Assembly: GCF_040026395.1 (NCBI RefSeq)
Contig: NZ_CP157278.1
Coordinates: 3,782,001 to 3,846,000, forward strand
Length of the DNA stretch: 64,000 nt
Direction of reading: 5' to 3'
Origin: Pedobacter lusitanus
GTDB taxonomy: Bacteria > Bacteroidota > Bacteroidia > Sphingobacteriales > Sphingobacteriaceae
Both the position numbers and the translations under genes were made by a program. Below are positions 28,988 to 48,500 of this stretch, in pieces. Positions within the stretch are counted from its first letter, which is position 1. The number at the start of each line of letters is the position of its first letter. Under the pieces are notes generated by a model, which saw nothing but the letters and a program-made list of their open reading frames with translations, was not told the origin of the DNA and ran no database searches.

Positions 28988-29114
28988 TCTTTTTGATTTA
29001 TAATTAAACATTGAATTATTAATGCAAAAGATAGAAAACAAACATCAATTAAATGTAGTTGTGTTAATGGAGAATAATTATTGTTAATAAATAACTGTTG
29101 TTGTGTTGAAATAA

Positions 29115-29807
29115 TTATAGTTGTGAATTAATTCTGATTGATGCTTTTACCATTGCCAGCGCTTTAATTGCATGTAACGGGAATTCAATTGACTGATGAT
29201 GCTGATTCTGAGAAACAAACCTGACATACCCCTCTTTTTCAGATCTCTGCAGATATTTTGTGAAAAAGAATTCATCTCCGTTATGCTCCAGATAAGTCAG
29301 GTACATTTCACCCCAGATGATATTATGAGCAATGTCTTTGATCTCTTTATACATGACGATATCGCCAGATTTCAGCAATGGATACATGCTGTCACCCGTA
29401 ATGTACAATGCCCCATCACATTTGGGCAATTTAGGAATACGGATATAATCAATCGGAACCTGTTTAAGTCTGTTTTTTCCCAATAGTTCAATCACTCCTG
29501 CACTTGCCTGTACATCATAAAGCGGAATATTTTGTGTATCCATTAATAAGTCTGTTCTTAATTTTCTGACACTAACCTCCTGACCCTCACTTTTCAGCAT
29601 CTCGCCCTGTCCAGTTAACAACCAGTTTGCATCAATGTCGACACATTTTGTGACTATCAACTCGTAGTCGATGGTGTTTCTACTATGCCAGTTAGACAAA
29701 GTGTTAGGTTTTATATCTAAGTAACGTGCAAACTCTGCGTCGTTTTTAAAGTTATAGTGAGATTTTATTTGGCTAAGGATCTGTGATTTACCTGAAGCTT
29801 CCTTCAT
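29115..29807 (-). CDS. LexA/CI-like repressor with S24 peptidase domain
   Basis: 230 residues from ATG 29807; a TTG start at 29828 is possible. The N-terminal HTH (about 8-60, FKNDAEFARYLDIKPNTLSNW) is of the phage CI type. The C-terminal S24 domain has the serine of GDSMYP (Ser140), lysine 184 (FFTKYLQR) and a putative Ala103-Gly104 cleavage site, so RecA-stimulated self-cleavage is expected. It is transcribed away from the phage-tail genes, as in prophages and pyocin loci, and probably keeps the island silent until DNA damage. Confidence 0.85.
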   Translation of the reverse strand: MKEASGKSQILSQIKSHYNFKNDAEFARYLDIKPNTLSNWHSRNTIDYELIVTKCVDIDANWLLTGQGEMLKSEGQEVSVRKLRTDLLMDTQNIPLYDVQASAGVIELLGKNRLKQVPIDYIRIPKLPKCDGALYITGDSMYPLLKSGDIVMYKEIKDIAHNIIWGEMYLTYLEHNGDEFFFTKYLQRSEKEGYVRFVSQNQHHQSIEFPLHAIKALAMVKASIRINSQL

Positions 29808-30124
29808 ATTGTGAATATTTATTTGCAATTAAACACATACTGTGTGTATGTTTGTTTTACCTAAACAAATGGCCTACATCTTTTACAAAGGTAAATAAAA
29901 AAGGAATAAATGCAACTATCAGACTATAAACGAACTATTGTAAAATTATATTGCAATACTCGATACAGTTAATTTGATAGAATGGCAATCAAATGAGAAA
30001 ATTTGTCCACAAAAAGATGAAGGTATTAGTTGTTTTGATCACAGATTGAGTAAGTAATTAATATTCGCACTCAATATGTAAACAGGTTAACCCAGCTGAA
30101 ATGTAAATTATTAAACCCTAAACT
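29808..30124. promoter_or_regulatory. Divergent regulatory region of the island
   Basis: Between the repressor and the first rightward gene. It holds two adjacent inverted repeats, both with 5-bp spacers: ACATAC-TGTGT-GTATGT (29835-29851) and TTTGTTT-TACCT-AAACAAA (29851-29869), next to the repressor start, and a looser pair ATTGAGT/ACTCAAT (30045-30051, 30069-30075) nearer the rightward genes. They are candidate operators for the S24 repressor. No clear TAnnTTTG promoter and no gene are seen. Confidence 0.5.
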
Positions 30125-30337
30125 ATGAATAACTCAATGGACAATCTGGTAGCCTACTACGCAGGAAGTGAAGTAAAAGTAATCAACGAATACCATCCGC
30201 ATTTCTGTGCAATAGGACAGGTAATAGGTGGAGAAAACACCGATACAGGTTTCGGTCTGAAGATCAAACGTTTTGATACACAGGAGCAATTCTATGTGTA
30301 TGATGCCAATCACTTAAAAATTACTAAAAGAAAATAA
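30125..30337 (+). CDS. Small protein of unknown function, first rightward island gene
   Basis: 70 residues, MNNSMDNLVAYYAGSEVKV at the start, no signal peptide or membrane segment; beta-rich with FGLKIKRFDTQEQFYVYD. Not recognised. It is the first gene of the presumed early operon, 1 base before the DUF3164-like gene, and separated from the repressor by the operator region; such genes often encode anti-repressors or regulators, but nothing in the sequence proves it. Confidence 0.6.
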   Translation: MNNSMDNLVAYYAGSEVKVINEYHPHFCAIGQVIGGENTDTGFGLKIKRFDTQEQFYVYDANHLKITKRK

Positions 30338-30338
30338 T

Positions 30339-30989
30339 ATGGAAATGATGAGAATTAACGCAACCGAATTAAGTATCAATCAGTTGGAAGGCTTACTCGC
30401 TGATCGTAAAAAACAAGAAAAAAACAGGAGAGCCAGGGCCAGAATGGATTATGAAATTGCACGGGATACTGACATTTCATCCCTGCTGGATGAGGCTGCA
30501 AAACTGCACTTTATGATACGCCTGTTTAAATCCAGAGTACACCAGGTAATGGCTGCCCAGGCCCAGAAAACAGCAGATTATGGGTTAATTCCAGCTACCA
30601 GCAAAGGTGGATTCAGTTTAACGAATAAGACAGGTAATAAGCGAGTAACCAGAAGGAGGGATACCGATCCTGTCTGGGATGAACGTGCGGTTAAAGCAAT
30701 TGGTCTGATCAAGGATTTTTTGTGTGATACGGTAAAAAAGAGAGATGTAAAACTATTTGAGATACTCTTAAGTTTCCTGGAACGCAATCAGAATGGAGAT
30801 CTTGAATATGCCAGAGTCTTTAATCTGATGCAGCATGAAGATAAGTTCGATGATGTCAGGTGGACTGAAGGGCTGCGTCTTTTGAAAGAAAGTTATAGCA
30901 TTACGCTAAAAGGGTTTGCTTATGATTTCAAGTTGAAAAACGATGCCGGTAAGTGGGATCGTCTGGAATTGAATTTCTCGAGTTTATAA
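30339..30989 (+). CDS. DUF3164-like phage protein
   Basis: 216 residues. The central segment TADYGLIPATSKGGFSLTN, followed by the basic RVTRRRDTDPVWDERA and later LLKESYSITLKG and YDFKLKNDAGKWDRLELN, matches my memory of DUF3164 proteins encoded in the early region of Mu-like phages. Their role is not known; they are found beside DNA transposition and regulatory genes. Here the transposase genes are missing. Its retention hints at a Mu-like ancestor and at a regulatory use in tail production. Confidence 0.7.
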   Translation: MEMMRINATELSINQLEGLLADRKKQEKNRRARARMDYEIARDTDISSLLDEAAKLHFMIRLFKSRVHQVMAAQAQKTADYGLIPATSKGGFSLTNKTGNKRVTRRRDTDPVWDERAVKAIGLIKDFLCDTVKKRDVKLFEILLSFLERNQNGDLEYARVFNLMQHEDKFDDVRWTEGLRLLKESYSITLKGFAYDFKLKNDAGKWDRLELNFSSL

Positions 30990-31050
30990 ACCCATAAATA
31001 TTAATAAACAAATTTCAAGCTCTCAGGAGCGCTCTTAAAAAATTATACTG

Positions 31051-31230
31051 ATGGCAAAACAACAATTTATATCGAGAAATCAAGCTGTTAAAGATTACTT
31101 TGATGAGCTTGTAAAACAGAAACCCGAATGGCGTCTGGACGCACTGGAAGAAAAAACTGCGGCTAAATTTTATATTAGTCCCCGTACTGTCAGAGCAATT
31201 TTAAAAGGTGAAGGCAATTATGCCAGTTAA
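31051..31230 (+). CDS. Small HTH-like protein
   Basis: 59 residues, MAKQQFISRNQAVKDYFDEL at the start and EEKTAAKFYISPRTVRAILKG at the C-terminal half, which looks like a helix-turn-helix (FYISPRTVRAIL as the recognition helix). It follows the DUF3164-like gene and precedes a strong terminator, so it is probably the last gene of the early transcript. It may be the activator of the late genes, but this is inference. Confidence 0.6.
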   Translation: MAKQQFISRNQAVKDYFDELVKQKPEWRLDALEEKTAAKFYISPRTVRAILKGEGNYAS

Positions 31231-31258
31231 AACCTGCATTTTATAATCACCTCCCGGC

Positions 31259-31307
31259 GCCTGTTTTACATTCACCCTTCCCAAGGCTGTAAAACAGGCT
31301 TTTTTTG
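31259..31307 (+). terminator. Terminator of the early island transcript
   Basis: Perfect 11-bp stem 31259-31269 (GCCTGTTTTAC) with 31289-31299, 19-nt loop, then T-run 31300-31306. Confidence 0.85.
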
Positions 31308-31344
31308 TAAACAGAGAAATACTGTCCCAATCGACAGTTATGGC

Positions 31345-31629
31345 TTACCAATCGTCGAAACCTTCTTCCAGTAAAGTGTTCTCTTCTGTGAAGCGTGATT
31401 CTTTCACCTTTACTCTATCGTTTTCAAAGTAACGTCTGGCCTCACTCAGAGAGCCCGTTTCTTCTTCTGCTTTCAGCAAATCGAAAACCTCCGGATCGTA
31501 GCCGTCTTCCTCTTCATTTCTACGCTGCCGGGCACTGTTTCCAGGGCCCTTCTTTCCTTTCAGAATTCCGTTTTTAGCCAGACTTTCTGCCTGGTCTTTT
31601 TTCTTGTTTTTTAAGATCAAATCGTTCAT
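31345..31629 (-). CDS. Small charged protein of unknown function
   Basis: 94 residues from ATG 31629, MNDLILKNKKKDQAESLAKN at the start; highly charged, no membrane segment. An upstream in-frame ATG (31713) would give a hydrophobic extension with unlikely sequence. It is on the opposite strand to all late genes and reads towards the early terminator. Function unknown; it may be an accessory (moron-like) gene or a regulator of the lysis block. Confidence 0.55.
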   Translation of the reverse strand: MNDLILKNKKKDQAESLAKNGILKGKKGPGNSARQRRNEEEDGYDPEVFDLLKAEEETGSLSEARRYFENDRVKVKESRFTEENTLLEEGFDDW

Positions 31630-32060
31630 ATCAAATGCTTTATAAGGACAAATCTCTATGAAAAATAAGGTTAAAAAAAAGTGGTGATCAATCGTTGTAT
31701 CTGACTGATACAAAAAATGTTATGAGAATTACAATGCCTGATTACCAATTTTTTTAGCCCTGAAAAATGCTACACCTTTGTCATTGTAAGGACGACAAAA
31801 TATCAGATGCAGCGCAAATTCAGTCCAGGTTTTTAAGCCTGAAAAATTCGGCTGTAACAGACAGATGAATCAGAAACATTCGTGTATTCAGACCAATGTT
31901 TTACGGCTATCATTTGCAATACTGATAGTCTCCTTCGAAATGCAGGAGACCTTAACGGACTCCTTTTAACAGGGTTAAATAAACAGGTGAAAAATGGCGG
32001 GGAGGCTTAGTGCCACCCGCATAACCCTAACCAGATTATGAAAAAATAAATTAAAGAGAG
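31630..32060 (+). promoter_or_regulatory. Long leader upstream of the late (lysis and tail) genes
   Basis: 431 bases with no convincing gene. Two structured elements stand out: hairpin GTCTCCT/AGGAGAC (31928-31934, 31944-31950), and a compound hairpin GCGGG (31997-32001)/CCCGC (32016-32020) enclosing GGC/GCC (32004-32006, 32012-32014). They sit 40-130 bases before the endolysin start, in the place where phages put late promoters and antitermination sites. No TAnnTTTG match is clear, so an activator-dependent late promoter is possible. Confidence 0.45.
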
Positions 32061-32600
32061 ATGAGCGAATTACCACAAAAATTTAAATGGCTGGACAGTT
32101 TCAAATCTCCACGGATATGGGTGGAGGCCCGTAAGCACTATGGCTTACTGGAGATTCCCGGAAAAGACAGTAACCCCAATATTTTGAAATGGGCTAAAGA
32201 AACCGGCGTTTCGGGCTGGTATACAAATGATGACATTCCATGGTGCGGACTTTTTGTTGGGATTTGTGTGTTGAGGGCCGGATATCAAACAGTTGGAAGT
32301 AAACTGCTGGCTGCACTGGAATGGTCAGACTGGGGAGTTGAAGTGGAAAAAGGAAAAGAAGCTTTTAATGATATTCTGGTATTTAAACGTCCTGGCGGCG
32401 GCCATGTCGGGTTCTACTGTGGTGAAAATGAAAAAGCTTATCTGGTTTATGGCGGTAACCAGAGCAATGCCGTTGGCCTGGCCTGGATTGACAAAACCAG
32501 ATTGGTAGCCTGCAGAAGAGCTGCCTTCAAAAATAAACCTGAAACTGTTAAAAAAATAAGATTAAATGATAGCGGAGCATTTTCAGAAAATGAAGCCTAA
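32061..32600 (+). CDS. Endolysin-like CHAP/NlpC-P60 amidase (TIGR02594-like)
   Basis: 179 residues, no signal peptide. The catalytic pair is Cys62 in IPWCGLFVG and His115 in GGGHVGFYCG, followed by an Asn in YGGNQSNAVG; these are the motifs of the TIGR02594 family of phage-borne peptidoglycan amidases. It opens the late operon and would let the particles out by cutting the cell wall once a holin-type protein has made pores. The next gene begins 14 bases later. Confidence 0.85.
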   Translation: MSELPQKFKWLDSFKSPRIWVEARKHYGLLEIPGKDSNPNILKWAKETGVSGWYTNDDIPWCGLFVGICVLRAGYQTVGSKLLAALEWSDWGVEVEKGKEAFNDILVFKRPGGGHVGFYCGENEKAYLVYGGNQSNAVGLAWIDKTRLVACRRAAFKNKPETVKKIRLNDSGAFSENEA

Positions 32601-32614
32601 AAATTACATAGCCA

Positions 32615-32911
32615 TTGGAAAATATACAAGAAAGCTTAGAGAAAATCTCTTTAAAGGAGATTGCACAAACCCCCTTTGCCTATGCACTTTATGTAATTAC
32701 ACTGGTTTTGGTCAGTGTGATTGTAACTGAGCGGTTTGATGCAAATACCGCAAAAGAGGATTGTGCAAAAAAGATAGAACAGCTTGAAGACATGGTTAAA
32801 GCAGAGCGAAGAGAGAAAGATGAGGTTTTTAAAGCCTACCTGATAGAGCGGTCAGCCAATCTGCAGATACAAAAAACAGTAGACAGTACAGCTATCAGTA
32901 AGTACAGATAA
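32615..32911 (+). CDS. Small single-span membrane protein, possible holin
   Basis: 98 residues from a TTG start; one hydrophobic helix at about residues 21-40 (FAYALYVITLVLVSVIVTE), then a charged coiled coil (KIEQLEDMVKAERREKDEV). Position next to the endolysin makes it a candidate holin or spanin component, but there is no sequence match to a known holin and the coiled coil would also fit an inner-membrane spanin. Function is inference from context. Confidence 0.6.
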   Translation: MENIQESLEKISLKEIAQTPFAYALYVITLVLVSVIVTERFDANTAKEDCAKKIEQLEDMVKAERREKDEVFKAYLIERSANLQIQKTVDSTAISKYR

Positions 32912-32991
32912 GCTATGCCTGTAAATCCCGGATAAAAGAATATACAAATAAAAATTATGCTGATGAAACCCTCAAAAACAAATTTAATCTG

Positions 32992-33714
32992 ATGAAAACA
33001 AAAGGCTTACAACTGGCACTAATCATTGCAGTTTTCCTGATCGCCTGGCTTGGTTTTAAACTATACAGACTCGCTCCACCCTCATCATTGGCACTGCAGA
33101 AAGAGGTAAGACCACCTGCATTAATTGATGAAGCAAAAACAGCGGCAAAGATACTGGCAAGCGCTGTTGATGAAAAAGGTTACACGAAGGTTACCCTTGA
33201 AAGGAAGGCTGATATTATCGGCGATGGAGATATTACCAGGTTGCCAATAAGCAAGTCTGTTCTGGACAGTCTGCGGCTGGACAATCTCGATAAGACCAAA
33301 AAATTGCAGCAGGCTTCCTTAATCAATGCCAGTTTGAAAATTACAGCACTCAGAGCAACAGGTATTATTGACAGTTTACAAAAGAAGCGATATAGCTATC
33401 AGGATGAATATTTAACAGCGGGTTTCAGTCTGGATACGCTGGGTGGGACATTTGATATTAATTACCAGATCAAGCTATTGCGGCAAGATTATCAAAAACG
33501 GAAGAACTGGTTTTCTCCCTATGTGCAGTATACCGATATCCTGAGTCCGGATAAACGAATTACTATCAATGGTATGCAGACGCTGACAATTGCAGCACCT
33601 AAAGCCTCCCGTCTTGGGCTGAGCTTAACAGCCGGCTATTACTATAACCCTGTTCAAGGGCAGTTTATACCTGCGCTGGGGCTCGGCTTGTCTTACAACT
33701 TAGTACAATTTTAA
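32992..33714 (+). CDS. Membrane-anchored protein of unknown function, lysis region
   Basis: 240 residues: N-terminal membrane helix (LQLALIIAVFLIAWLGF, residues 7-24), a helical periplasmic stretch, and a C-terminal beta-rich part with AGYYYNPVQGQFIPALGLGLSYNLV that looks like outer-membrane-like beta strands. No family recognised. Sitting between the small membrane gene and the structural genes, it could be the spanin that joins the membranes, but similar proteins are not known to me. Confidence 0.6.
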   Translation: MKTKGLQLALIIAVFLIAWLGFKLYRLAPPSSLALQKEVRPPALIDEAKTAAKILASAVDEKGYTKVTLERKADIIGDGDITRLPISKSVLDSLRLDNLDKTKKLQQASLINASLKITALRATGIIDSLQKKRYSYQDEYLTAGFSLDTLGGTFDINYQIKLLRQDYQKRKNWFSPYVQYTDILSPDKRITINGMQTLTIAAPKASRLGLSLTAGYYYNPVQGQFIPALGLGLSYNLVQF

Positions 33715-33734
33715 ACAATAATTAACCCGTCAAC

Positions 33735-33932
33735 ATGGCAAAAAGAAACAAAGGAACACCCGTGCTTAAAGCGCAAAAAGAGACAAATACAGTATTTGTT
33801 CCACATCCGGTTGTGGATGTGTATTACCTGACCAGTGATGGCAGTCCATTCTATCTGGAGTCTGCTGCTCAGGATTACGCTCAAGAGTTAAATAACAAAA
33901 CAATTCAAAAAATAACAAAAACAAATCAATGA
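33735..33932 (+). CDS. Small protein coupled to the tail sheath gene
   Basis: 65 residues, basic start (MAKRNKGTPVLKAQKETN) and an otherwise unremarkable sequence with VDVYYLTSDGSPFYL. Its stop overlaps the sheath start as ATGA, so the two are translationally coupled. Unknown function; perhaps a tail-completion or sheath-assembly factor. Confidence 0.6.
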   Translation: MAKRNKGTPVLKAQKETNTVFVPHPVVDVYYLTSDGSPFYLESAAQDYAQELNNKTIQKITKTNQ

Positions 33933-35104
33933 ACGGTGTAAAATTCATCAGAGAAAATGGCGGACTTGCAAGACAGCTTTCAGGTAACGACCACATTAGC
34001 GGACTTATAGTTTATGGCGAAGCTGATACCCCAAAAAGATTAGTACTATCTGCAAACGAAGTAGATAATTTATCTGTAACAAACCCCGTGCTGGTTTACC
34101 ATGTTCAGGAGTTTTTCAGGATCAATGAAGGCGCAAAACTTTATATCAAGGGTATTGCCGGATCGGATTCTCAGTTTACAGAGGTTAAAAATCTGCAGAA
34201 CTTTGCCGAAGGTAATATCAGACAGATTGCAGTCTGTGACCTGGTTATGCCAGCAAGCTCGCTGATCACTGCAGTGCCGGCTTTGCAGGCAATCGCAAAA
34301 GAATTAGGTAATCAGAATATTCCATTAAGTATTTTATTATCTGTATTCACTACTCCGGCTGATATCCCGGCTTTAGTTAATCTGCATGAGCTTAATGCTG
34401 ACCGCGTGAGTGTCGTTATTGGTCAGGATGCAGCCGGAAAAGGAAATTATCTGGCAAAAGCATTAACAACTCCGCGTAATATTTCATGTATCGGTGCAGT
34501 ATTGGGCGCAGTATCAAAAGCAAATGTTCAGGAATCTATTGGCTGGGTTGAGAAACAAAATCTGGTATCTACTGCTTATCCGAAGCCAGCAGATGCAACA
34601 GCAGATATGGCCAGGGAGCTGGATGTACTTGGTTTGACTGATGGTTCGAAAATCAGAGATTATACGCCGTCACAATTACAGTCAATTCATGATAAGGGCT
34701 ACATATTCGGTACAAAATATACAGGAATTGCGGGATCTTATTTAAATGACAGTTTCACAGCTGCAGCCTTAACCAGTGACTTCGCTTATATCGAAAATAA
34801 CAGAACAATTGATAAAGCGATCAGAGAAGTTAACAAGGTGCTTTTACCAAAAGTTTCCGGCCCTGCATATGTAGATCCGGACACCGGAAAAATTCAGGCT
34901 TCAACAGCATCAGCATTAGAATCCATCTGTGATGAGGTTTTAGATCAGATGGTAAGAAGCGGTGAGCTGAGTGGTTATAAAGTAATCATTAACCCTGATC
35001 AGCCTATCCTGCAGACTTCAAAATTAGAGGTCGTATTAAAACTGGTACCAGTAGGAACCTTAAGAGAAATTACAGTAAAAATTGGTTTAACACTTCAAAA
35101 ATAA
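33929..35104 (+). CDS. Contractile tail sheath protein (DUF2586-like)
   Basis: 391 residues. The alternating domain pattern, the segment RQIAVCDLV, LSILLSVFTTPADIPAL and the C-terminal domain (YKVIINPDQPILQTSKLEVVLKLVPVGTLREITVKIGL) are those of the DUF2586 family, the sheath protein of Bacteroidota contractile phages. The sheath surrounds the tube and contracts to drive it into the target. It is the first of an uninterrupted structural operon; the tube gene starts 6 bases after its stop. Confidence 0.75.
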   Translation: MNGVKFIRENGGLARQLSGNDHISGLIVYGEADTPKRLVLSANEVDNLSVTNPVLVYHVQEFFRINEGAKLYIKGIAGSDSQFTEVKNLQNFAEGNIRQIAVCDLVMPASSLITAVPALQAIAKELGNQNIPLSILLSVFTTPADIPALVNLHELNADRVSVVIGQDAAGKGNYLAKALTTPRNISCIGAVLGAVSKANVQESIGWVEKQNLVSTAYPKPADATADMARELDVLGLTDGSKIRDYTPSQLQSIHDKGYIFGTKYTGIAGSYLNDSFTAAALTSDFAYIENNRTIDKAIREVNKVLLPKVSGPAYVDPDTGKIQASTASALESICDEVLDQMVRSGELSGYKVIINPDQPILQTSKLEVVLKLVPVGTLREITVKIGLTLQK

Positions 35105-35110
35105 ATAAAA

Positions 35111-35545
35111 ATGGGAATCACATTAGAGCCATTAATTAACGGTAGAGAGTATGGATGGGCGGATATTGTTGTCAATATCGATGCAGTACCCTTAACAGGT
35201 ATCAGAGCCATCAAGTATGAAGAGGCCATGGAAAAAGAAAATATCTATGGCGCAGGCAGAAATCCGGTGAGCCGCGGCTATGGCCGAATTTCAACAACAG
35301 CTTCTATTACGCTGCTTGCCGGAACTGTATTTTCTTTAAAATCAGGTGCTCCAAAAGGTCAGTTACACCGTATTGCGCCATTTAGCATTACCGTAAACTA
35401 TCAGCCGGAAGCAGGACCACTAATTACACATGTATTAAAAAACTGCGAGTTTAAAAAGAACACTTTTGACTGGAAAGAAGGTGATATGAGTAAAGAAGTA
35501 GAGTTAGAACTAATCGTTTCGCACGTAGTAGATAAAAGCAATTAA
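35111..35545 (+). CDS. Tail tube protein
   Basis: 144 residues, beta-rich, directly after the sheath gene as in most contractile tails. Segments GYGRISTTASITLLAGTVF and FSITVNYQPEAG fit the Hcp/gp19-like tube fold, and the sequence ends with LELIVSHVVD. The identification rests on size, fold impression and position between sheath and chaperone; no characteristic short motif exists for this family. Confidence 0.65.
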   Translation: MGITLEPLINGREYGWADIVVNIDAVPLTGIRAIKYEEAMEKENIYGAGRNPVSRGYGRISTTASITLLAGTVFSLKSGAPKGQLHRIAPFSITVNYQPEAGPLITHVLKNCEFKKNTFDWKEGDMSKEVELELIVSHVVDKSN

Positions 35546-35547
35546 TT

Positions 35548-35874
35548 ATGGAAAATACCGAACAACTGGTTTGCGGACTTAGTGCTATTCAGATCCTGAA
35601 ACTTAAAGAAAAGCATGGCTTTTTAATTTTGGGAGAAGTAAAGCAGGCCGGCACAACCTATCAGGCGATTTTCAAGGAGCCTGATTTCAAAACCCTGGAA
35701 GCTACGGGTGCAGTAGGAGAGAAAAATGCGATTAAAGGTACCATTGCATTATTTGATAATTGTGTGGTTGCCTCAGATGAAGCATTGAGCCAGCGAGACT
35801 TTTTAAAGTTAAAAGCTGTAGAATGTCTGGCGCAGCATATGAACTCTTTTAATGTTACCGTAAAAAACTTGTAG
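35548..35874 (+). CDS. Tail assembly chaperone, short (G-like) form
   Basis: 108 residues ending at TAG 35872-35874. Located between tube and tape measure, where P2, Mu, lambda and pyocin-like systems have the tail chaperone. It contains LSAIQILKLKEKHGFLILG and LKLKAVECLAQHMNSFNVT. Its last codons overlap the slippery sequence at 35862-35868, so ribosomes that shift make the longer product described next. The chaperone coats the tape measure during tube assembly. Confidence 0.8.
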   Translation: MENTEQLVCGLSAIQILKLKEKHGFLILGEVKQAGTTYQAIFKEPDFKTLEATGAVGEKNAIKGTIALFDNCVVASDEALSQRDFLKLKAVECLAQHMNSFNVTVKNL

Positions 35875-36077
35875 GCTCGCTTAATGGCGGGCCTGACAAT
35901 AGCAAAACAGACACCGGAAGGTGGCAGGGCGATGCATTAATCCGCTCGAATTTCAGTGTCGATCCGGAAAGGTTACAACTAAGTGAATGGGCAAAATTAC
36001 ATGCCCAGGCACAATGGCTGGAACGCTGGCGACTTGAAAATCAGGCTGAATTATTCAAAGTAATGTTTGGTGGCTAG
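35548..36077 (+). CDS. Tail assembly chaperone, -1 frameshift (G-T-like) fusion
   Basis: The 0-frame continues to AAA-AAC at 35863-35868; slipping back one base there, the second frame reads KKLVGSLNGGPDNSKTDT, then ALIRSNFSVDPERLQLSEW and AQWLERWRLENQAELFKVMF, ending at TAG 36075-36077. Total 176 residues, 69 of them from the -1 frame. The second part has no start codon of its own in a usable place. It is the same arrangement as lambda gpG/gpGT and its P2 and Mu equivalents, in which the ratio of the two forms matters for tail assembly. Confidence 0.85.
35862..35895 (+). promoter_or_regulatory. -1 programmed ribosomal frameshift signal
   Basis: Slippery heptamer A-AAA-AAC (35862-35868) in the right frame, 4-nt spacer, then a stem GGCTCGC (35874-35880) with GCGGGCC (35887-35893), loop TTAATG, extended by A-T (35873-35894). 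One U-G pair interrupts an otherwise GC-rich stem. This is the canonical layout of phage tail-chaperone frameshift sites. Confidence 0.92.
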
Positions 36078-36174
36078 GGGTATTGTGTATAAAGCCGATA
36101 CCCCGGCTTTTCATCCGCATTCAGTTCTGCAAACAAATAACAATTATATCAATTAAACAAAACAATATTCCAAC

Positions 36175-37929: not shown

Positions 37930-37930
37930 C

Positions 37931-39524: not shown

Positions 39525-39526
39525 AT

Positions 39527-40215: not shown

Positions 40216-40216
40216 G

Positions 40217-40504
40217 ATGAAAGACATTTTACTAAAAGACGATGATGCATTGGTGGTCAGAGGCGATTTTTTGATCGAAGAATCTGATGCACAGCATGTA
40301 GAGCACCTCTTAAAAAGCAAACAGGGTGAATGGAAAGAAAATCCACATGCCGGAATTGACATCGGGCAGGCACAAAGTGGTACCATAGACCGCTTTTTGT
40401 ACAGGAATATTCGCGTTCAGCTTGAAGCAGACGGCTTTATAGTTAAAGAGTTAGCGATCAATGAAAATGGAATAGACTTAAACGGAGCATATGAAGGAGT
40501 ATAG
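40217..40504 (+). CDS. Baseplate wedge protein (gpW/gp25-like)
   Basis: 95 residues, with DIGQAQSGTIDRFLYRNIRVQ and the position before tail X and protein J that the gpW/gp25 family takes in P2- and Mu-like tails. These proteins nucleate sheath assembly and connect wedge and tube. Start is one base after the previous stop; it overlaps the next gene by 14 bases. Confidence 0.65.
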   Translation: MKDILLKDDDALVVRGDFLIEESDAQHVEHLLKSKQGEWKENPHAGIDIGQAQSGTIDRFLYRNIRVQLEADGFIVKELAINENGIDLNGAYEGV

Positions 40505-40781
40505 AATTTATGAACAGCAAACGTGGTGGGATATTTCCATACATGAATATGGAACTGCTGAATTTGCTACTGATCTGGCTGTATTCAATAACTCCGGTCC
40601 GGCGGAAGATCTAATAGCCGGAACCCTGATTTTTCTGCCTGATTACAGATCTGAAAGACTGGTATTGCTCAGTATGAAAAATGTTCCGGCAACAGGCTTT
40701 GGCAAATTGGGTGAGGGAACAGTTAATAAACCCCAGGGTATAGACTACTGGGCAATTAGTTACGATTTTATAGTAAGTTAA
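40491..40781 (+). CDS. Tail protein X-like (LysM-type) protein
   Basis: 96 residues. YRIYEQQTWWDISIHEYGTAE and GPAEDLIAGTLIFLPDYRS have the pattern of a LysM domain (xxxxxTxWDI...LxxGxxxxxP), as in P2 gpX-like tail proteins, which bind near the hub. Only one LysM unit fits. It is coupled to the W-like gene and followed by protein J two bases on. Confidence 0.65.
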   Translation: MKEYRIYEQQTWWDISIHEYGTAEFATDLAVFNNSGPAEDLIAGTLIFLPDYRSERLVLLSMKNVPATGFGKLGEGTVNKPQGIDYWAISYDFIVS

Positions 40782-40783
40782 TT

Positions 40784-41635
40784 ATGGCAAGAAGCATAGA
40801 ACAAATACAAGCAGAAATAATACAGGCTAAAGAAGCCGATTCCGATTTGGATGTATTGAACAGTACAAGCAGAGTGGCCATCTGGCGATTGATAACTTTT
40901 GTTATTGCCGCTGCAATTTCCACCCTCGAAAAACTGTTTGATCTGCACAAACAAGAGACAGATACCAGGATCTCATTATTAAAACCACATACTGCAAGAT
41001 GGTACAGAGAGAAAACGATGGCTTTCCAGTACGGTTTCCCACTGGTTCGTGATGCTGATTATTATGACAATAGTAAGGTGACGCCTGAACAGATTCAGAA
41101 CAGTAAAATTATCAAATATGCTGCGGTAACTGAATCTGAAGACGAAAGTCGTCTGATTGTTAAAATCGCTACAGAAACGGCAGGGGATTTAGGGCCGATT
41201 ACAGATGCGCAAAAATTAATCTTCGAAGCGTATATCTCCGAGATCAGGGATGCCGGAGTATCCATAGACGTTATTAATTTCTTGCCGGACAGGCTTTTCC
41301 TGGCCATTGACATCTATCGTGACCCGTTATTACTGGATGCACAGGGGAACAGTATTCTGAATGGTGGAAAACCAGTTGAAGAAGCGATTAGGCAATACCT
41401 CAGAGAGATGCCTTTCAATGGAGAGCTGATTCTGGCTTCGCTGGTAGACAAGTTGCAATTGGTACCAGGTGTAAAGATCCCTCATATTCTCAGTGCGCAA
41501 AGCAGCTGGGTAGACGGGGCTCCGGGTAATTACGGTACACCAAAGGAAATTATTGTGCGTCATACTCCGCTGTCGGGATATTTCGAAATCAAAGACTTTA
41601 GCAAAATTAATTATGTGGTACAAAATAGACTTTAA
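40784..41635 (+). CDS. Baseplate protein J-like
   Basis: 283 residues, the position and size of Mu gp47/P2 gpJ, a wedge protein of the baseplate. Characteristic hydrophobic segments (VAIWRLITFVIAAAISTLEKLFD, VSIDVINFLPDRLFLAIDIY, AIRQYLREMPFNGELI) fit the Baseplate_J family. It overlaps the next gene by 23 bases, showing strong translational coupling within the wedge genes. Confidence 0.7.
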   Translation: MARSIEQIQAEIIQAKEADSDLDVLNSTSRVAIWRLITFVIAAAISTLEKLFDLHKQETDTRISLLKPHTARWYREKTMAFQYGFPLVRDADYYDNSKVTPEQIQNSKIIKYAAVTESEDESRLIVKIATETAGDLGPITDAQKLIFEAYISEIRDAGVSIDVINFLPDRLFLAIDIYRDPLLLDAQGNSILNGGKPVEEAIRQYLREMPFNGELILASLVDKLQLVPGVKIPHILSAQSSWVDGAPGNYGTPKEIIVRHTPLSGYFEIKDFSKINYVVQNRL

Positions 41636-42080
41636 GAAGCTTACGGTTTTAATCCTGCCTACTTTTCTGAGACAGAATCTGATGGTGAGTTATATCCAGG
41701 CTTTGGTTACACCAGTTTCCATGCTGTACCAGCTATGGTATACCAGAAGAGAAGATAATTTGTATAAACTGGCACATAACGGGCAGGTTTGTTATCTGAG
41801 AAAGGCATTGAATGATCTGTTTGATAATGAATTAAGACGTATTTATATAGATAATGGTAACCGTTTCAAGCGGACCTATATCTATACCAGGGCAGAGAAT
41901 CGGCCGCGTTATTTAAAGCGGTTATTTCTGCAGCCCAGTACAAGTTTCGCTGATACCGGTGCTGATTTCAAAGTGATGCTTCCGGCAGAGCTGAACATCC
42001 CGGCAAATTATTACCAGTTAAATGCATTGGTTGATTTTTATAAACTAGCAAGTAAACGATATACAATAGAAACGATATGA
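41613..42080 (+). CDS. Tail protein I-like protein
   Basis: 155 residues from ATG 41613; an upstream in-frame ATG (41553) lies inside the previous gene and is less likely. Sequence MWYKIDFKKLTVLILPTFLR at the start, with RYLKRLFLQPSTSFADTGAD. Position right after J and before the fibres is that of P2 gpI, which links the baseplate to the fibres. The fibre gene overlaps its stop by ATGA. Confidence 0.65.
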   Translation: MWYKIDFKKLTVLILPTFLRQNLMVSYIQALVTPVSMLYQLWYTRREDNLYKLAHNGQVCYLRKALNDLFDNELRRIYIDNGNRFKRTYIYTRAENRPRYLKRLFLQPSTSFADTGADFKVMLPAELNIPANYYQLNALVDFYKLASKRYTIETI

Positions 42081-42916
42081 ACAATATAAATTTTGAACAA
42101 ACCGGAGGGTTTCCATTAGAGACCGATACATTAAATTTTATGCAGGCAAGTTATACCTCCCTGCAATCTGTTACTGCTTTAGGTGGCAGCAATTATATTT
42201 TGTCTGGTTGTACGGTTTCAGGAAGTACAGTTACAGACGGTTATGTTGTTTTAAATGGGGAGTTATTACCCTTTAGAGGTGGGCTGGTACAAACCAACAT
42301 TGTGATCAGGGAAGATAAACAGCAACGTCCTTTTGAAAACGGACAGACCAAAGATGTTTTCTTTACCCGTTATGCACAATTTGGAACTGGTACAGGTGCG
42401 ATCAATTGGGGCACGCTGCCCAGGCTGATGGATTTGCAGACCGTAGGTGCGGAGATTGCGAAAAAAGCACTTTCTGTAGATCTGGCAGCATTGAGAAATG
42501 AGGTCGATACCCTTAAAAAGATAGCAGCTCCTTTTTCTGGTGGCGGAGGTATGGTCTTATTTAAAAAGCCATTCAATCAGATCCCTTTGGGCTGGGCAGA
42601 AGTAGCCGAATGGCGTGGAAGATTACCTATGGGCTGGAATCCTGATGACTATAGATTTAGTAGTGTCGGGCAAAATGGAGGAGCTGCATCACATAGTTTA
42701 AATGAATCACAACTACCAATATTATCGAATGACAGGGCAGGGCTTCAGCGTCAGTCATACTGGGGTGAGAATGTTACTTCAAAAAACACAGATGATAGAG
42801 ATTCAGGGAAAGAGCCAGATATTTTAAATCACATTGGCTGGCCGGGAACAGGGGCTCAGATTGACCATCTTAATCCTTACCGTATTGTGATGTTTATCGA
42901 ATACGTAGGAGGATAA
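42077..42916 (+). CDS. Collar-domain tail fibre protein
   Basis: 279 residues. N-terminal FEQTGGFPLETDTLNFMQASY, a beta part, a short coiled coil (DLAALRNEVDTLKKIA), and a C-terminal half with IPLGWAEVAEWRGRLPMGWNPDDY and HLNPYRIVMFIEYVGG, the pattern of the phage collar (short tail fibre) domain. It is coupled to protein I. It might be the base onto which the larger fibres are attached, or a first fibre of its own. Confidence 0.75.
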   Translation: MNNINFEQTGGFPLETDTLNFMQASYTSLQSVTALGGSNYILSGCTVSGSTVTDGYVVLNGELLPFRGGLVQTNIVIREDKQQRPFENGQTKDVFFTRYAQFGTGTGAINWGTLPRLMDLQTVGAEIAKKALSVDLAALRNEVDTLKKIAAPFSGGGGMVLFKKPFNQIPLGWAEVAEWRGRLPMGWNPDDYRFSSVGQNGGAASHSLNESQLPILSNDRAGLQRQSYWGENVTSKNTDDRDSGKEPDILNHIGWPGTGAQIDHLNPYRIVMFIEYVGG

Positions 42917-42917
42917 C

Positions 42918-42947
42918 ATGGCGAAACAAGCTTTAAGTATCTGCTAA
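42918..42947 (+). repeat. Truncated copy of the fibre gene start
   Basis: ATG 42918 begins a 9-codon frame that stops at TAA 42947. Its first 19 nt (42918-42936) are identical to the first 19 nt of the fibre gene at 42984-43002. It looks like a left-over 5' end of a lost or exchanged fibre gene. Confidence 0.7.
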
Positions 42948-42983
42948 AATCCAGTCCACCACCATAATTTTAATTAAAACAAA

Positions 42984-44618
42984 ATGGCGAAACAAGCTTT
43001 AAATACAATAAAAAACTGGTTTAAGACCGGTTTAAAACCTTCTCAGCAGCAATTCTGGGATACCTGGGATTCTTTTTTGCATAAGGATGAGATGATTCCC
43101 ACTGCAAGCATTGAAAATCTGGACAGGCGTTTCGATGAGAAAGCTGATCAGGAAGCTTTCTCAGGCCATTTGGCCGATGCTATTGCTCATGGGAGTAATA
43201 AGGTAGACAAAGAGCCTGGCAAGGGCCTGTCATCCAATGATTATACCGCTCAGGATAAACAAAAATTAGACAGGCTATACAACTTTGATGATACAGAGAT
43301 ACTGGATCAGCTTGAGGTAATCAATCTGAAAAACACGACTCAGGACACAGATATCGCTGGTCTTAAAGATTTGGCCGCAACTATAAACAGTAAAGAGAAC
43401 ATCATTGCTCCTGGTACCACTGCGCAGTACTTTCGGGGCGATAAGACCTGGCAAACGCTGGATAAGGGAATCGTTGGATTAAATAATCTTCCGGTTTATA
43501 CAACTAACTATGATGCATTAGAAGGAGGACTGGGAGACGGTGATTTTTATAGAATGCCTGAATTTTTAGGGAACTATGCCGTAGCCGCAGCTTCGGTTAA
43601 TATGGCTTCTCCAATTATCATTACTTTGACCGTTATCAGAGATAATTATACCATGAGTGATGGTAGTGTGATTTATAGTAGTAGTGGTCGGCCTATTGAT
43701 TTTTTTATAGATTACGGTGATGGGGATTCCCAAAAATCCAACGGAATTACTGCAGCGATTAAACACACCTATAAAAAAGCAGGGACGTATAAAATAAAAT
43801 TGTTTTTTTCCGATTATTCAATGGTTAATTCGGTTTATATAAGTGATAGTTGTGTCACTAAAACTGAAAATATATCGAGACTGAAGGACTTGCCTCTTTT
43901 TACAGTGTCGAAAGGTAATTTGGGTTATTTTAATACTAAAATGCCATCCAGGCTACAGGTGTTTGCTCTTTCTAATGGAGAAGATGGTAAAAATAATGAT
44001 ATCGTAACCGGCATTGATCTGGATATTTTTAACGATCATATTTCTTCGTATTTAGCGATACAGATTTTAGCCACTGCCCTGAATAAAATTGATTTCAACG
44101 TTGGATTACCAGCTAGTTTGGATAATATCGTTATAAGTATGAATAAGCAGTTGAAGAATATCAATCTGGATATGTTTAAGAACTGCGTCAATCTTAGATC
44201 TATTGACTTTAACCTGAATGATAATTTGAGCGAAGTGAATTCGACAATTAGCCTGCCTTCATCGTTAACACGGTTTTCAATGGATACCTCTAAAATAACT
44301 TCATTTAATCCGGACCGTTTTAAAAATTGTTTAAATCTATCTTTTATTGCAATTGAAAAGAGTAACCTGGCTTCATTTACACCTTTGGTATTTTTATCTC
44401 AGAGACTTAAGCAATTGAATCTGAAAGGCAATAAATTCTCAGTAGAGGAGGTGAATAATATTCTGATTGATTTAGATAAGCTTGAGTTTACCTCTCTGAG
44501 CGTTGAGTTGAACAATCAAAATCCTCCGGCTGTACCAACAGGAGCTGGTTTAGCTGCAAAAGAAAGGCTGATTGCGAAAGGATTTTCTATAACTACGGAT
44601 ACAGCTGCGGTTGAATAA
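42984..44618 (+). CDS. Tail fibre 1 with PKD-like and leucine-rich-repeat regions
   Basis: 544 residues. Adaptor at residues 1-48 (KNWFKTGLKPSQQQFWDTWD), then phage-fibre motifs (GKGLSSNDYTAQDK; LNNLPVY follows) and a coiled region. From about 195 a PKD-like beta sandwich (IDYGDGDSQ, HTYKKAGTYKIKLFF). From about 290 to 530 a BspA-like leucine-rich repeat array with units such as FKNCVNLRSIDFNLN and FKNCLNLSFIAIE. The LRR is the probable receptor-binding head. It shares only the N-terminal adaptor with fibres 2 and 3. Confidence 0.75.
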   Translation: MAKQALNTIKNWFKTGLKPSQQQFWDTWDSFLHKDEMIPTASIENLDRRFDEKADQEAFSGHLADAIAHGSNKVDKEPGKGLSSNDYTAQDKQKLDRLYNFDDTEILDQLEVINLKNTTQDTDIAGLKDLAATINSKENIIAPGTTAQYFRGDKTWQTLDKGIVGLNNLPVYTTNYDALEGGLGDGDFYRMPEFLGNYAVAAASVNMASPIIITLTVIRDNYTMSDGSVIYSSSGRPIDFFIDYGDGDSQKSNGITAAIKHTYKKAGTYKIKLFFSDYSMVNSVYISDSCVTKTENISRLKDLPLFTVSKGNLGYFNTKMPSRLQVFALSNGEDGKNNDIVTGIDLDIFNDHISSYLAIQILATALNKIDFNVGLPASLDNIVISMNKQLKNINLDMFKNCVNLRSIDFNLNDNLSEVNSTISLPSSLTRFSMDTSKITSFNPDRFKNCLNLSFIAIEKSNLASFTPLVFLSQRLKQLNLKGNKFSVEEVNNILIDLDKLEFTSLSVELNNQNPPAVPTGAGLAAKERLIAKGFSITTDTAAVE

Positions 44619-44642
44619 AAACGTAATCATGAAATTATAAAA

Positions 44643-46241
44643 ATGGCGAAACAAACTCTAAATACTATAAAAGACTGGTTTAATACCGGATTTAAGCCAC
44701 TGCAACAACAATTCCGGGATACTTTTGATTCTTTCTGGCATAAGGACGAGGTTATCCCTGCGGCAAACATAGAAAATCTGGATATCCGTTTTGGTGAAAA
44801 AGCTGACAACGATAACTTTGCCAGGCATATCAGTGATCTTAATACACATGAGCTGGATCAGAAAGCCGGTCTTGCGGACCGGAATACTTTCCTGAAAGAG
44901 AATACATTTGTTAAACAGGTTCGTATACCTGGTCTGCTAACCGATGCTGGCCTGGAGTTGAATCCGGATCGGGATAACAATGAAGTAGTTAAAGGCTTTT
45001 CCGGCGAACTGTTTTTTGATACTGAAGACGGTACCTTATCGTATTCTTCTGTATCACGTGATTCAGGGGGGGTGTCACGTGAAATCTTTTCGGGAGCTAA
45101 GTTCAGCATAAAGCCGTCTGGTGATCTGGATGTATCCGGGTTGCTGAATGCCTCAGTGATATCATTAAGTGCAAATGATGGTTTTGAGCAGCATATTCAG
45201 CCGGCAGCAGTAGTTACAACTGAAGATACTGAGTTGTCTTTGCCTCAATTAAGTGGTATACTGGCCAGAAAAGAAGATATACCGGCCATCAGTGCCGGTA
45301 ATAATATTACCATTACCGGTACACTTTTAAAACCAGTCATTAATGCCACGGTAGGAGGCGGGAATCTTACAGAGAGCAGCGGAAATTTTATTACTGAGGT
45401 CACTTATGAGGAATTAAATGCACTGATCCACACTGAAAGCCTTGTGCCAGGTAAAGAATATTGTATATCAGATTTTCAGAGCACTTTTGTTTATGCAGAA
45501 CACAAGATAGCAGATAACCCGATTCCTAGTGAGTCTTTATATTACGGATCAGAAGTTTATTCTGGTCCGGTAGAACCGCTGATCGTTTTGGCCATCACTC
45601 CTGCTAAAATTCATGCAGTAGTCCGTTCAGCTAATTTCCCGGCTGATGAGATTGTTTATACTACACAAAATCTATATCGTGGAATATTAGCTTCGACAAA
45701 AGGTACTATACTGAGAAGAACGGATATGATGTTGAATAATACTGCCAATTTCGATTACAGACGCACAAAATTCCGGACTAATGGTGGAGAACCCCAGGAT
45801 GCTTTGTATCTGTCGTCAAATTGCACCGTAGAGGCTTTAGGGGATTACGGGACTGTTACACCTGTGGTGATCATGGAGATGGAAAATTCAGTATTGTACT
45901 CTTTTAGTGGTGACATCATGAGAACATTGCGGGATTCGAATCTGCAAATGCTTACAGGCAGAATTTATTCTATTTCAGCCAATGTTTATAAATGTAATAT
46001 AAAGGGAGAGCTAATTTATATAGACAGAAATTATACAGACACAAGATTTAGCCTTAATTACGTCTATGCGAGAATCGGACAGGTAAATAGTTCTTTACAG
46101 AATGATCGGGTATTACAATACCTGGCTAATCAACAACAACCCTCTGTTGTTGTTGAAGCAAGTGATCGTAGATTATATCTGCAGAAGATTGACAATACGG
46201 GCCTGGTCATCACAGAGAGACTGTCATATAGTGCGGTCTGA
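44643..46241 (+). CDS. Tail fibre 2
   Basis: 532 residues. The same N-terminal adaptor (KDWFNTGFKPLQQQFRDTFD) and a middle part of beta repeats (LPQLSGILARKEDIPAISAG). The C-terminal half is homologous to that of fibre 3: ISDFQSTFVYAE, YYGSEVYSGPVEPLIVLAIT, LASTKGTILRRTD and NNTANFDYR. The C-terminal part is unrelated to fibre 1, so the modules are exchanged behind a fixed adaptor. It lies 24 bases downstream of fibre 1, which suggests one transcript. Confidence 0.75.
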   Translation: MAKQTLNTIKDWFNTGFKPLQQQFRDTFDSFWHKDEVIPAANIENLDIRFGEKADNDNFARHISDLNTHELDQKAGLADRNTFLKENTFVKQVRIPGLLTDAGLELNPDRDNNEVVKGFSGELFFDTEDGTLSYSSVSRDSGGVSREIFSGAKFSIKPSGDLDVSGLLNASVISLSANDGFEQHIQPAAVVTTEDTELSLPQLSGILARKEDIPAISAGNNITITGTLLKPVINATVGGGNLTESSGNFITEVTYEELNALIHTESLVPGKEYCISDFQSTFVYAEHKIADNPIPSESLYYGSEVYSGPVEPLIVLAITPAKIHAVVRSANFPADEIVYTTQNLYRGILASTKGTILRRTDMMLNNTANFDYRRTKFRTNGGEPQDALYLSSNCTVEALGDYGTVTPVVIMEMENSVLYSFSGDIMRTLRDSNLQMLTGRIYSISANVYKCNIKGELIYIDRNYTDTRFSLNYVYARIGQVNSSLQNDRVLQYLANQQQPSVVVEASDRRLYLQKIDNTGLVITERLSYSAV

Positions 46242-46306
46242 TGTTTATTATTTCAGCAATCAAATAACCTTATCTGATAACTGGCAAAACAAATAAAATT
46301 ATAGAA

Positions 46307-47869
46307 ATGGCAAAACAAACTTTAAATATCATAAAGAACTGGTTTAGAACCGGTCTTAAACCTTCTCAGCAGCAATTTTGGGATACCTGGGACTCTTTCT
46401 GGCATAAAGACGCTATTATTCCGTCTGGTAATATTGAAAATCTCGATCTGCGTTTTGATCAGAAAGCAGATGCCGAAGCGTTGAACAGTCATATCAAGGA
46501 TCAGACAGCCCATGGACTTAACCAGAAAGCCGGGTTGACTGATCAGAATATATTCGCCGCAGAGAATACATTTATCAATAAGATAAGGGTTCCAAAGGTG
46601 TTGACGGATACAGGAATAGATTTTAATCTCGATCTGAAAAATAAGATGGCCGTCAGTGGCTTTGCAGGGAAACTGACTTTTGGTATAGAAGACGGTACAT
46701 TGTCGTTTACTGGTACACGAGCAGCAAAAGAAGGTTCGGCAGATCCATCCTTTGCTGGGGCTCAATTCAGAATCAGTTCAGATGGCGATACGGACATTCA
46801 GGGGAAACTTAATGCTTCGGGTTTATCATTTCCTACGGCTGATAATTTCTATCAGTATATCAGCCCGGCTGCAATAACAACTGAAAATACGGAGGTTTTT
46901 TTACCGGCTTTAAGCGGAACCCTGGCCAGAACAGCAGATATTCCTGTCCTGACTGCTGGTGATAATATTACGATCACCGGTACGGCTTTAAATCCAGTTA
47001 TTAATGCGACTGGTGGCGGCGGCCCTGCGCTGATTTCGGTAACTTATGAGGAGTTAAATACGTTAATTGAAACCAGTAAACTGATACCGGAACAACAATA
47101 TCTGCTCAGCGACTTTCAGAGTACTTTTATTTATGGTAATCATTTTATGGATGAAGAGCGGGAGGCAATTTATTTTGGGTCAGAAGTTTATTCAGGTGAT
47201 ATAGAGCCCTTAATTCTAAAGGCCTTGAGTAAAAATCAACTTTACCTTGAAGGTAAATCGACAGTCTATCAGAGTGATGAGGTATTATACAGTATAGAAA
47301 ATCAAAAACGCGGCATACTGGCCTCAACTAAAGGTACCCTATTGAGAAGAATTGATAAAGAGTTTAACAATACAGCTAATTTTGATTATAGAGTTACCCG
47401 GTACAAAACCAATGGAGAAGAGCCTAAACAAGCTTTATATCTGACAAGAAACTGTACAATAGATGCGTTTGGACGTTATGATATGGTATATCCTGTAGTG
47501 ATCCGTGAGATGGAGAATTCATACCTTAAATCGTATGAAGGAACCATTATGAACTCATTACGCAATTCAAAATTAGATATAGGATATAGAAGTATAACTT
47601 CCAGTATGGTGAATGTATATGGCTGCGAAATTACCGGACCACTATTTGGCATGTGGAAAAGTTATAAGAACGTTGGATCTGTAAGTCTATCTTATATTTA
47701 TGCGAACACTGTTGAGTATATCGGCTGGATGACGGAAGAGGATGTCATTAAGCATTTGGCCAATAAGTCTTATCCTTCTTATGTGGTGCAAAGTGGTAAT
47801 GCAATTTATCTCCAGAATAATGAGTCAACAGGAGTGACCACAACATTGATCAGTTATGTGCCGGTTTAA
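46307..47869 (+). CDS. Tail fibre 3
   Basis: 520 residues, close paralogue of fibre 2 over the entire length: adaptor KNWFRTGLKPSQQQFWDTWD, middle LPALSGTLARTADIPVLTAG, and C-terminus with LSDFQSTFIYGNH, YFGSEVYSGDIEPLILKAL, LASTKGTLLRRID, NNTANFDYR. Divergence is greatest in the last about 200 residues, as expected for the receptor-binding end. The glycosyltransferase-like gene starts inside its last codons (14-base overlap). Confidence 0.75.
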   Translation: MAKQTLNIIKNWFRTGLKPSQQQFWDTWDSFWHKDAIIPSGNIENLDLRFDQKADAEALNSHIKDQTAHGLNQKAGLTDQNIFAAENTFINKIRVPKVLTDTGIDFNLDLKNKMAVSGFAGKLTFGIEDGTLSFTGTRAAKEGSADPSFAGAQFRISSDGDTDIQGKLNASGLSFPTADNFYQYISPAAITTENTEVFLPALSGTLARTADIPVLTAGDNITITGTALNPVINATGGGGPALISVTYEELNTLIETSKLIPEQQYLLSDFQSTFIYGNHFMDEEREAIYFGSEVYSGDIEPLILKALSKNQLYLEGKSTVYQSDEVLYSIENQKRGILASTKGTLLRRIDKEFNNTANFDYRVTRYKTNGEEPKQALYLTRNCTIDAFGRYDMVYPVVIREMENSYLKSYEGTIMNSLRNSKLDIGYRSITSSMVNVYGCEITGPLFGMWKSYKNVGSVSLSYIYANTVEYIGWMTEEDVIKHLANKSYPSYVVQSGNAIYLQNNESTGVTTTLISYVPV

Positions 47870-48461
47870 TATTGCCACAACTAACTCCAGTCTGTCTGCA
47901 GACAGACTGGCTGATCTGATCCCATTACTTAACCAGTCTGTTATTCCTTTCCGGGTGTATACCGGAGAAATAACCTCGCTGAAATATGACGGACTATACA
48001 ATGTAGCCAAACAGATTATCAGGGATCATACAGATGAGCCATATGTCATCTTCGCTGAGGATGATCTGGTACTGACCGAGTTTTTCAGTATGGAAAAGCT
48101 TAATACCTCTATTAATCAGGCTGCGGAATTAAATCTGGACATCCTGGCTACCGGAGCCTGGCTGAGTTATGAAGAGATTGCTGTTGCAGATGGTCTGCTG
48201 AAAATCGGGGGATTCAGGGGTACACAATTAACCGTGATTTTCAGACCGGCTTACCAGATTCTGCTGGATTCGCCGGTTTATAACCATTTTGAAGATACAA
48301 TCAGCAAGTGTCAGCCTAAATTGCAGATCGGTTTGACCTTCCCTTTTCTCAGTAAACAGCGCGAAGATATCCCTTCTATGATAGTTGCTGAAAATCACAA
48401 TTATCTTTTCCATGAAAATGAAGAAAAGATCAGTAAACAGTTAAATAAACAGGCGAAATAA
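47856..48461 (+). CDS. Glycosyltransferase-like protein coupled to fibre 3
   Basis: 201 residues. The sequence has a Rossmann-like pattern: RFNIATTNSSLSADRLADL at the start, then YVIFAEDDLVL, a beta strand ending in an EDD acidic triad such as GT-A and GT25-like glycosyltransferases use to bind nucleotide sugar and metal, and LDILATGAWLS. It overlaps the fibre 3 gene by 14 bases, so the two are translationally coupled. A role in glycosylating the fibre or altering the producer's surface (self-immunity) is plausible inference. A 24-bp palindrome lies in its 5' end. Confidence 0.55.
   Translation: MCRFNIATTNSSLSADRLADLIPLLNQSVIPFRVYTGEITSLKYDGLYNVAKQIIRDHTDEPYVIFAEDDLVLTEFFSMEKLNTSINQAAELNLDILATGAWLSYEEIAVADGLLKIGGFRGTQLTVIFRPAYQILLDSPVYNHFEDTISKCQPKLQIGLTFPFLSKQREDIPSMIVAENHNYLFHENEEKISKQLNKQAK
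47887..47910. repeat. Perfect 24-bp palindrome just after fibre 3
   Basis: CCAGTCTGTCTG (47887-47898) is followed by its exact complement CAGACAGACTGG (47899-47910). It lies 17 bases beyond the fibre 3 stop and inside the next gene. A further CCAGTCTG occurs at 47933-47940. Confidence 0.8.
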
Positions 48462-48500
48462 ATTTGCCGGGCTATTACACCAAAAGAGGTCATAAAACGC

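Follow-up and report, generated by a model that had tools for sequence, protein, structure and literature searches.

Gene content and setting of the island

The window, by which we mean the whole 64,000-nucleotide stretch of the Pedobacter lusitanus genome analyzed here (genome G000 in our comparisons), carries an island of about 19.9 kb that encodes a contractile phage tail together with a repressor and lysis genes, and which we regard as an R-type tailocin candidate. The open frames that a preliminary description of this DNA had placed at 29115 to 48461 were borne out by the frame listing. The island and the gene adjoining it comprise the following features (aa, amino acids).

28464..28538, plus strand: tRNA-Asp gene adjoining the insertion (second copy at 25733-25807)
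28612..48490, no strand: island, bounded where homology with the island-free locus of genome G024 is lost
29115..29828, minus strand: CI-type repressor with S24 self-cleavage domain (Pfam)
29884..30093 (approximate), plus strand: degenerate counterpart of the small early gene found just ahead of tnpA in G024, a fossil of the transposition operon (base alignment and shuffles)
30125..30989, plus strand: early genes for a 70-aa protein and a DUF3164 protein (Pfam/PHROG; homologues in transposase-bearing headless elements)
31051..31230, plus strand: conserved 59-aa protein (100% identical in genome G023, 90% in G024)
31345..31713, minus strand: small frame, start codon uncertain (related to the minus-strand W-like gene of G055-type elements, E value 1.9e-8)
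32061..33714, plus strand: lysis block with a TIGR02594 enzyme (profile matches) and holin-like and spanin-like proteins (position and membrane look)
33929..35104, plus strand: tail sheath, DUF2586 (Pfam E value 3.2e-50; PHROG)
35111..35874, plus strand: tail tube and protein in the chaperone position (PHROG; homology to phage genes)
36175..37929, plus strand: tape measure, 584 aa (PHROG)
37931..39524, plus strand: DUF6046 hub-type protein and baseplate hub (Pfam, PHROG)
39527..40781, plus strand: spike, 72-aa protein, W-like and X-like baseplate proteins (PHROG; homology to phage genes)
40784..42080, plus strand: baseplate wedge J (283 aa; predicted fold) and I (both by homology to phage genes)
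42077..42916, plus strand: Gp10_C-like fiber or collar protein (Pfam; homology to phage genes)
42918..42947, plus strand: nine-codon stub of a lost fiber gene, whole in G023 and G024
42984..47869, plus strand: fiber genes A, B, and C, sharing their first 80 residues
47856..48461, plus strand: glycosyltransferase, GT-A fold (predicted structure and fold matches)

The sheath, tape measure, and hub named in the preliminary description are backed by Pfam and PHROG matches; in particular, DUF6046 was recognized with a Pfam E value of 1.3e-30, and two baseplate-hub PHROG families were matched in the island. For the sheath, no sequence relative was found among solved structures, the one row returned, at E 0.48, being unrelated. 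The best PHROG family for the tube gene is labeled "major head protein" (2.3e-23, over residues 19 to 160 of a 501-residue profile) and the second best "tail protein" (6.3e-17). The W and X proteins have weak PHROG matches (E values of 0.05 and 0.03), and the spike and I have none. All four (W, X, spike, and I) match counterparts in headed phages of the Winoviridae (E values of 1.1e-14, 1.9e-4, 2.2e-12, and 1.3e-31). The assignment of J is supported by the same homology and by its predicted fold, whose top Foldseek match is the baseplate of the R2 pyocin, with baseplates of extracellular contractile injection systems (eCIS) matched too. By scaling the 584-residue tape measure to that of the Winoviridae phage Peternella_1, which has 669 residues by its coordinates and a tail of 105.8 nm (PMC8776804), a tail of about 92 nm is predicted.

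Upstream of the tail genes, the proposed repressor with an SOS-type domain was confirmed by matches to Phage_CI_repr (E value, 4.1e-11) and Peptidase_S24 (1.8e-11), and DUF3164 was matched at 2e-12. The pattern of a palindrome at 29835-29851 was unmatched in G023, G024, and G055, and no operator is claimed. The 59-aa protein is perhaps a regulator. The enzyme of the lysis block matches TIGR02594 and, among PHROG families, best "baseplate hub subunit and tail lysozyme" (1.8e-29) and then endolysin (1.4e-4); the holin-like and spanin-like assignments rest on position and membrane look. The structural genes do run in one direction, as had been stated, but the repressor and the small frame at 31345-31713 lie on the opposite strand. 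The latter is conserved in G023 and G024; its W-like counterpart occupies the same place, also on the minus strand, in G055-type elements, and the window frame may have taken on a new role or be a mere relic. These G055-type headless elements (loci L048, L136, L137, and L138) carry a tail-completion-like gene and the minus-strand W-like gene just before the lysis genes.

At the other end of the island, the first 80 residues of fibers A to C are 62 to 70% identical; beyond them, B and C are 49% identical, and A aligns with neither over its full length. Their orthologues in G023 are 56 to 57% identical in the part behind the first 80 residues. The model of the terminal glycosyltransferase has a mean predicted local distance difference test score of 89.5, and its best structural matches are a glycosyltransferase and human COLGALT1. 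A protein search returned 12 relatives, itself included, with the copies of G023 and G024 being 72% identical. As a guess at its role, the enzyme may decorate the fibers or alter a surface glycan of the producer itself.

The island lies between the tRNA-Asp gene and a TetR-family regulator, and in the alignment with the G024 locus, homology ends at 28611 and restarts at 48491. The same headless module occurs in three Pedobacter species, namely, the window, G023, and G024, and the tRNA-Asp locus is common to the first two. In fact, the comparison with related genomes that the preliminary description had called for placed the island of G023, by gene maps, between the same two neighbors, whereas G024 has these neighbors without the island and its own headless copy on a different contig. 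Among the flank loci examined (L050 to L056), the neighbors of the window were seen only in those of G024 and G150. The tRNA-Asp locus of G024 also carries other variable genes. In the window, both tRNA-Asp genes are followed by the same hairpin (25733-25859 and 28464-28590, hairpin included), in a duplicated block of 105 bases with 95% identity. The short segment between tRNA and repressor (28612-29110), with one 86-aa frame, is unlike both G023 and G024.

Search for head and packaging genes

The preliminary description had found neither capsid nor terminase, and our searches, carried from the element to the whole genome, agree. A frame search for the Winoviridae-type capsid and large terminase gave no match in the island (5/5 controls found), and profiles for the two proteins gave none in the whole genomes of the window, G023, G024, and G055 (0/4 each); the profiles target Winoviridae-type heads and would miss one unrelated to these. 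The capsid profile found 6/6 controls, several of which had been used in building it. In a second round, G106, G125, G149, G155, and nine other presumed headless genomes or records were negative with both profiles (0/13), while both found all three headed controls, two of them outside the profile-building set; among the nine, L068 and L076 bear sheaths identical to those of L013 and L011. Furthermore, the head proteins of four phages match no frame of the window. The Winoviridae core genes include, according to PMC8776804, those for capsid, neck, Clp protease, and head morphogenesis/portal. These four are unmatched in the window, and the sheath and hub are matched. Where elements could be followed to both sides (window, G024, G125, and G149), the gene maps leave no large unassigned block between the sheath and the early or transposition genes; the contigs of G055 and G155 end within or soon after the fiber genes.

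Relationship to transposable Winoviridae phages

Among annotated records, the headed phages nearest to the window are Winoviridae, with sheaths at most 38% identical. The sheaths of Peternella_1, pippi8-1, FPSV-S1, and fF4 are of the same family as that of the window (28 to 38% identical). In these phages the early, lysis, and tail genes follow one another as in the window, but a capsid, portal, and terminase are present, whereas the window has none of these and no transposase. In Peternella_1 the order is repressor, small gene, TnpA, TnpB, ATPase, DUF3164, head genes, lysis, and then sheath and tail, and that of the window is the same minus the transposition and head genes. Peternella_1 has a MuA transposase and replicates by transposition in the view of its authors (PMC8776804). 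Nearer headed sheaths (49 to 66% identical) belong to prophages of Flavobacteriaceae and Weeksellaceae, and the sheath of Pedobacter sp. NJ-S-72 is 81% identical to that of the window. On these comparisons, we take the island to have a transposable, Mu-like phage of the Winoviridae kind as its ancestor. The preliminary description had included neither this origin nor the decay of the early gene, the headless kin with transposase, or the terminal glycosyltransferase.

The decayed gene lies in the window and G023 between the repressor and the next gene and contains stop codons in both, whereas G024 has at this position a small gene followed by tnpA. Its two ends align with G024 at 42/52 and 39/46 identical bases, and for each end, 0/1000 block shuffles scored as high. 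It follows that the ancestor of the window and G023 would have had, and then lost, the start of the transposition operon. The small early gene may be comparable to the ner gene of Mu.

Headless elements with transposase genes in Pedobacter

The sheath profile found matches in 12 of 145 Pedobacter genomes. By gene maps, eight have headless elements (G000, G023, G024, G055, G106, G125, G149, and G155) and four headed ones (G159, G165, G172, and G183); a third sheath place of G159 (C191) stands outside this assignment, and the TnpA-positive contig of G045 (3.8 kb) is too short to assign. Full-length frames for TnpA, TnpB, and the ATPase are present in six of the eight headless elements (G024, G055, G106, G125, G149, and G155). 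TnpA and TnpB are missing in both the window and G023, and no match to the G024 TnpA was found in the whole of G000. TnpA and sheath are 7.3 to 8.8 kb apart in the six headless elements, whereas Peternella_1 has 23.1 kb between them and the headed element of G172 has 21.2 kb. The G024 TnpA aligns throughout with that of Peternella_1, and the acidic residues identified by eye as its presumed catalytic triad are present.

The elements of G125 and G149, which lie at different loci, have TnpA proteins 88% identical and TnpB proteins 90% identical, with ratios of nonsynonymous to synonymous substitution (dN/dS) of 0.045 and 0.044, respectively; the transposition genes are thus as constrained as the tail genes of this pair (0.04 to 0.15). 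A scan of IMG/VR returned four loci of this TnpA lineage, namely, G125, two metagenomic contigs, and a near copy of G149. The first three are headless in the available part, the last is too short to judge, and no headed member was seen among the four. The G024-type TnpA was found at nine loci. Besides G024, these were four whose available part includes head genes and four not reaching so far. Headless transposase-bearing elements ("transposing tailocins") therefore appear to form an enduring type within Pedobacter, and the island of the window appears to be a settled descendant of them.

Transposition genes kept and conserved without head genes call for some route between cells, and it is possible to think of these elements as tail-forming phage satellites, which would build their own tails and depend on a headed Winoviridae helper for heads and packaging, the more so as headed relatives occur in the genus. 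Known satellites do the mirror image, making capsids and borrowing tails. However, a helper-type capsid or large terminase was found in none of the eight headless Pedobacter genomes (0/8 for each profile), no packaging gene was recognized in the elements, and the proposal explains little for the window, which is without a transposase; we consider it unlikely.

Selection and recurrence of head loss

Between the window and G023, dN/dS (Nei-Gojobori) of 20 non-fiber genes ranged from 0.009 (repressor and 59-aa protein) to 0.25 (frame at 31345-31713), with 0.17 for the sheath, 0.04 for the tube, and 0.08 for the hub; dS was 0.56 to 2.1, many values being near saturation, so these ratios are approximate. 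The DUF3164 gene, whose dS was saturated, was left out of the count, and the first rows for fibers A to C were dropped since the window had been compared with a nonorthologous fiber on cut-off loci. By its low dN/dS, the module is kept by selection, and the range of dS indicates that the headless state common to the window and G023 is old.

A tree of 56 sheaths, of which 18 were labeled headless, 34 headed, and 4 unknown, requires seven changes of head state, at least six of them forced by well-supported branches. They fall at three points within Pedobacter and in Chryseobacterium, another member of the Weeksellaceae, and Flavobacterium. For some sheaths from other genera than Pedobacter, the label was assigned from 10 kb of sequence upstream together with the profile searches; G172, later found headed, was entered as unknown, and L082 as headless from its available part and its likeness to L019 to L021. 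Since at least six changes are forced, the tree indicates that head loss recurred. The window, G023, and G024 form one sheath clade amid headed elements of Flavobacteriia. J and I of the window are 66% and 57% identical to those of G055, and the sheath, tube, and hub 26 to 32%; the island is, by this measure, a mosaic.

Upstream of the sheath, the Chryseobacterium headless loci L011, L013, and L014 have minus-strand frames that are patatin-like (by eye), peptidase-like, and of about 1,220 aa. The Flavobacterium loci L019, L020, and L021 have there a second DUF6046/hub pair, and no head gene was found in them by profiles.

A defective prophage in early decay, its head lost by chance, would account for the two relics, the decayed early gene and the fiber stub. 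All other genes are open, though, and show purifying selection at large divergence, G023 has the same content at the same locus, and six parallel head-state changes are seen on the sheath tree. Simple decay, which had been argued against before, is disfavored by dN/dS across the 20 genes, and we judge this explanation less probable still than the satellite.

Interpretation

Still less credible would be an eCIS delivering a protein effector: such systems share the headless contractile tail, and the J fold matches their baseplates also, but, as had been noted, no AAA+ ATPase or effector family was found among the island proteins in Pfam, PHROG, and NCBIfam scans (NCBIfam on part of them), and the repressor and lysis block are of the phage type.

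The near-complete tail set, the lack of any recognized head gene, the strong selection, and the shared locus in another species make the R-type tailocin candidate proposed in the preliminary description the best reading of the island, and we place it in a new lineage. We hold it quite probable that it is a tailocin module under selection in Pedobacter with a transposable, Mu-like ancestor among phages of the Winoviridae kind, and it is probably a weapon against relatives. Several observations weigh against this. No tail-completion gene was recognized in the window, though G055-type elements keep one, the tail genes of the window being otherwise complete and intact; the dN/dS values carry the imprecision given above; the spread of the sheath in the genus is patchy; and the counterpart locus of G024 holds 6.2 kb of other genes between the neighbors. 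As for mobility, candidate target-site duplications, found by eye at element ends also set by eye, are suggestive only (5 bp in G125 and 6 bp in G024), none was found for G149, and neither G125 nor G024 gave a clean empty site. For G125, four genomes have the left neighbor (70 to 77% identical), the other neighbor being absent from the loci seen; for G024, the best homologue of the right neighbor (G029, 51%) is not beside the left neighbor.

As in the R-type tailocins of the R2 pyocin and Pseudomonas syringae kinds, the window combines a contractile tail with repressor and lysis genes and no head, and it shares the J wedge fold with the R2 pyocin. It differs from both in coming from another phage family (Winoviridae, in Bacteroidota) and in having sister elements that keep Mu-type transposase genes. 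The P. syringae tailocin is known to derive from a Mu-like phage (PMC12090994).

It is possible to hypothesize that DNA damage would lead to self-cleavage of the S24 repressor and then to the reading of the early and late operons, so that contractile tails of about 92 nm would be assembled and freed by lysis of the producer; fibers A to C would choose the target, whose envelope would be breached by contraction, resulting in killing. As regards its history, a headed transposable phage would have lost its head and packaging genes while the tail and lysis genes, the repressor, and the transposase stayed. Headless elements of this sort would have persisted in Pedobacter, and the copy located at tRNA-Asp in the common ancestor of the window and G023 would have lost tnpAB and become fixed.

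Tailocins are usually viewed as static, domesticated phage remains. In Pedobacter, the stages may be seen side by side in one genus, from a headed transposable prophage through a headless element whose transposase is full-length and, in one pair, conserved, to a fixed headless island with its fossil. The odds seem to us evenly divided on whether headless Mu-like elements constitute an autonomous class of mobile elements, a transposon carrying a phage-tail weapon, which would spread by transposition and gene exchange without a capsid, pay its way by arming the host, and settle at times, as in the window and G023, by loss of the transposase. In the open-license literature on tailocins, phage tail-like particles, Winoviridae, and transposable phages, searched mainly by titles and the openings of abstracts, we found no description of headless elements that keep Mu-type transposition genes. 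The island offers a tailocin candidate with variable fibers for the Sphingobacteriaceae. Two questions may now be put to the test, namely, if a bacteriocin may serve as its own mobile element and what causes heads to be lost repeatedly.

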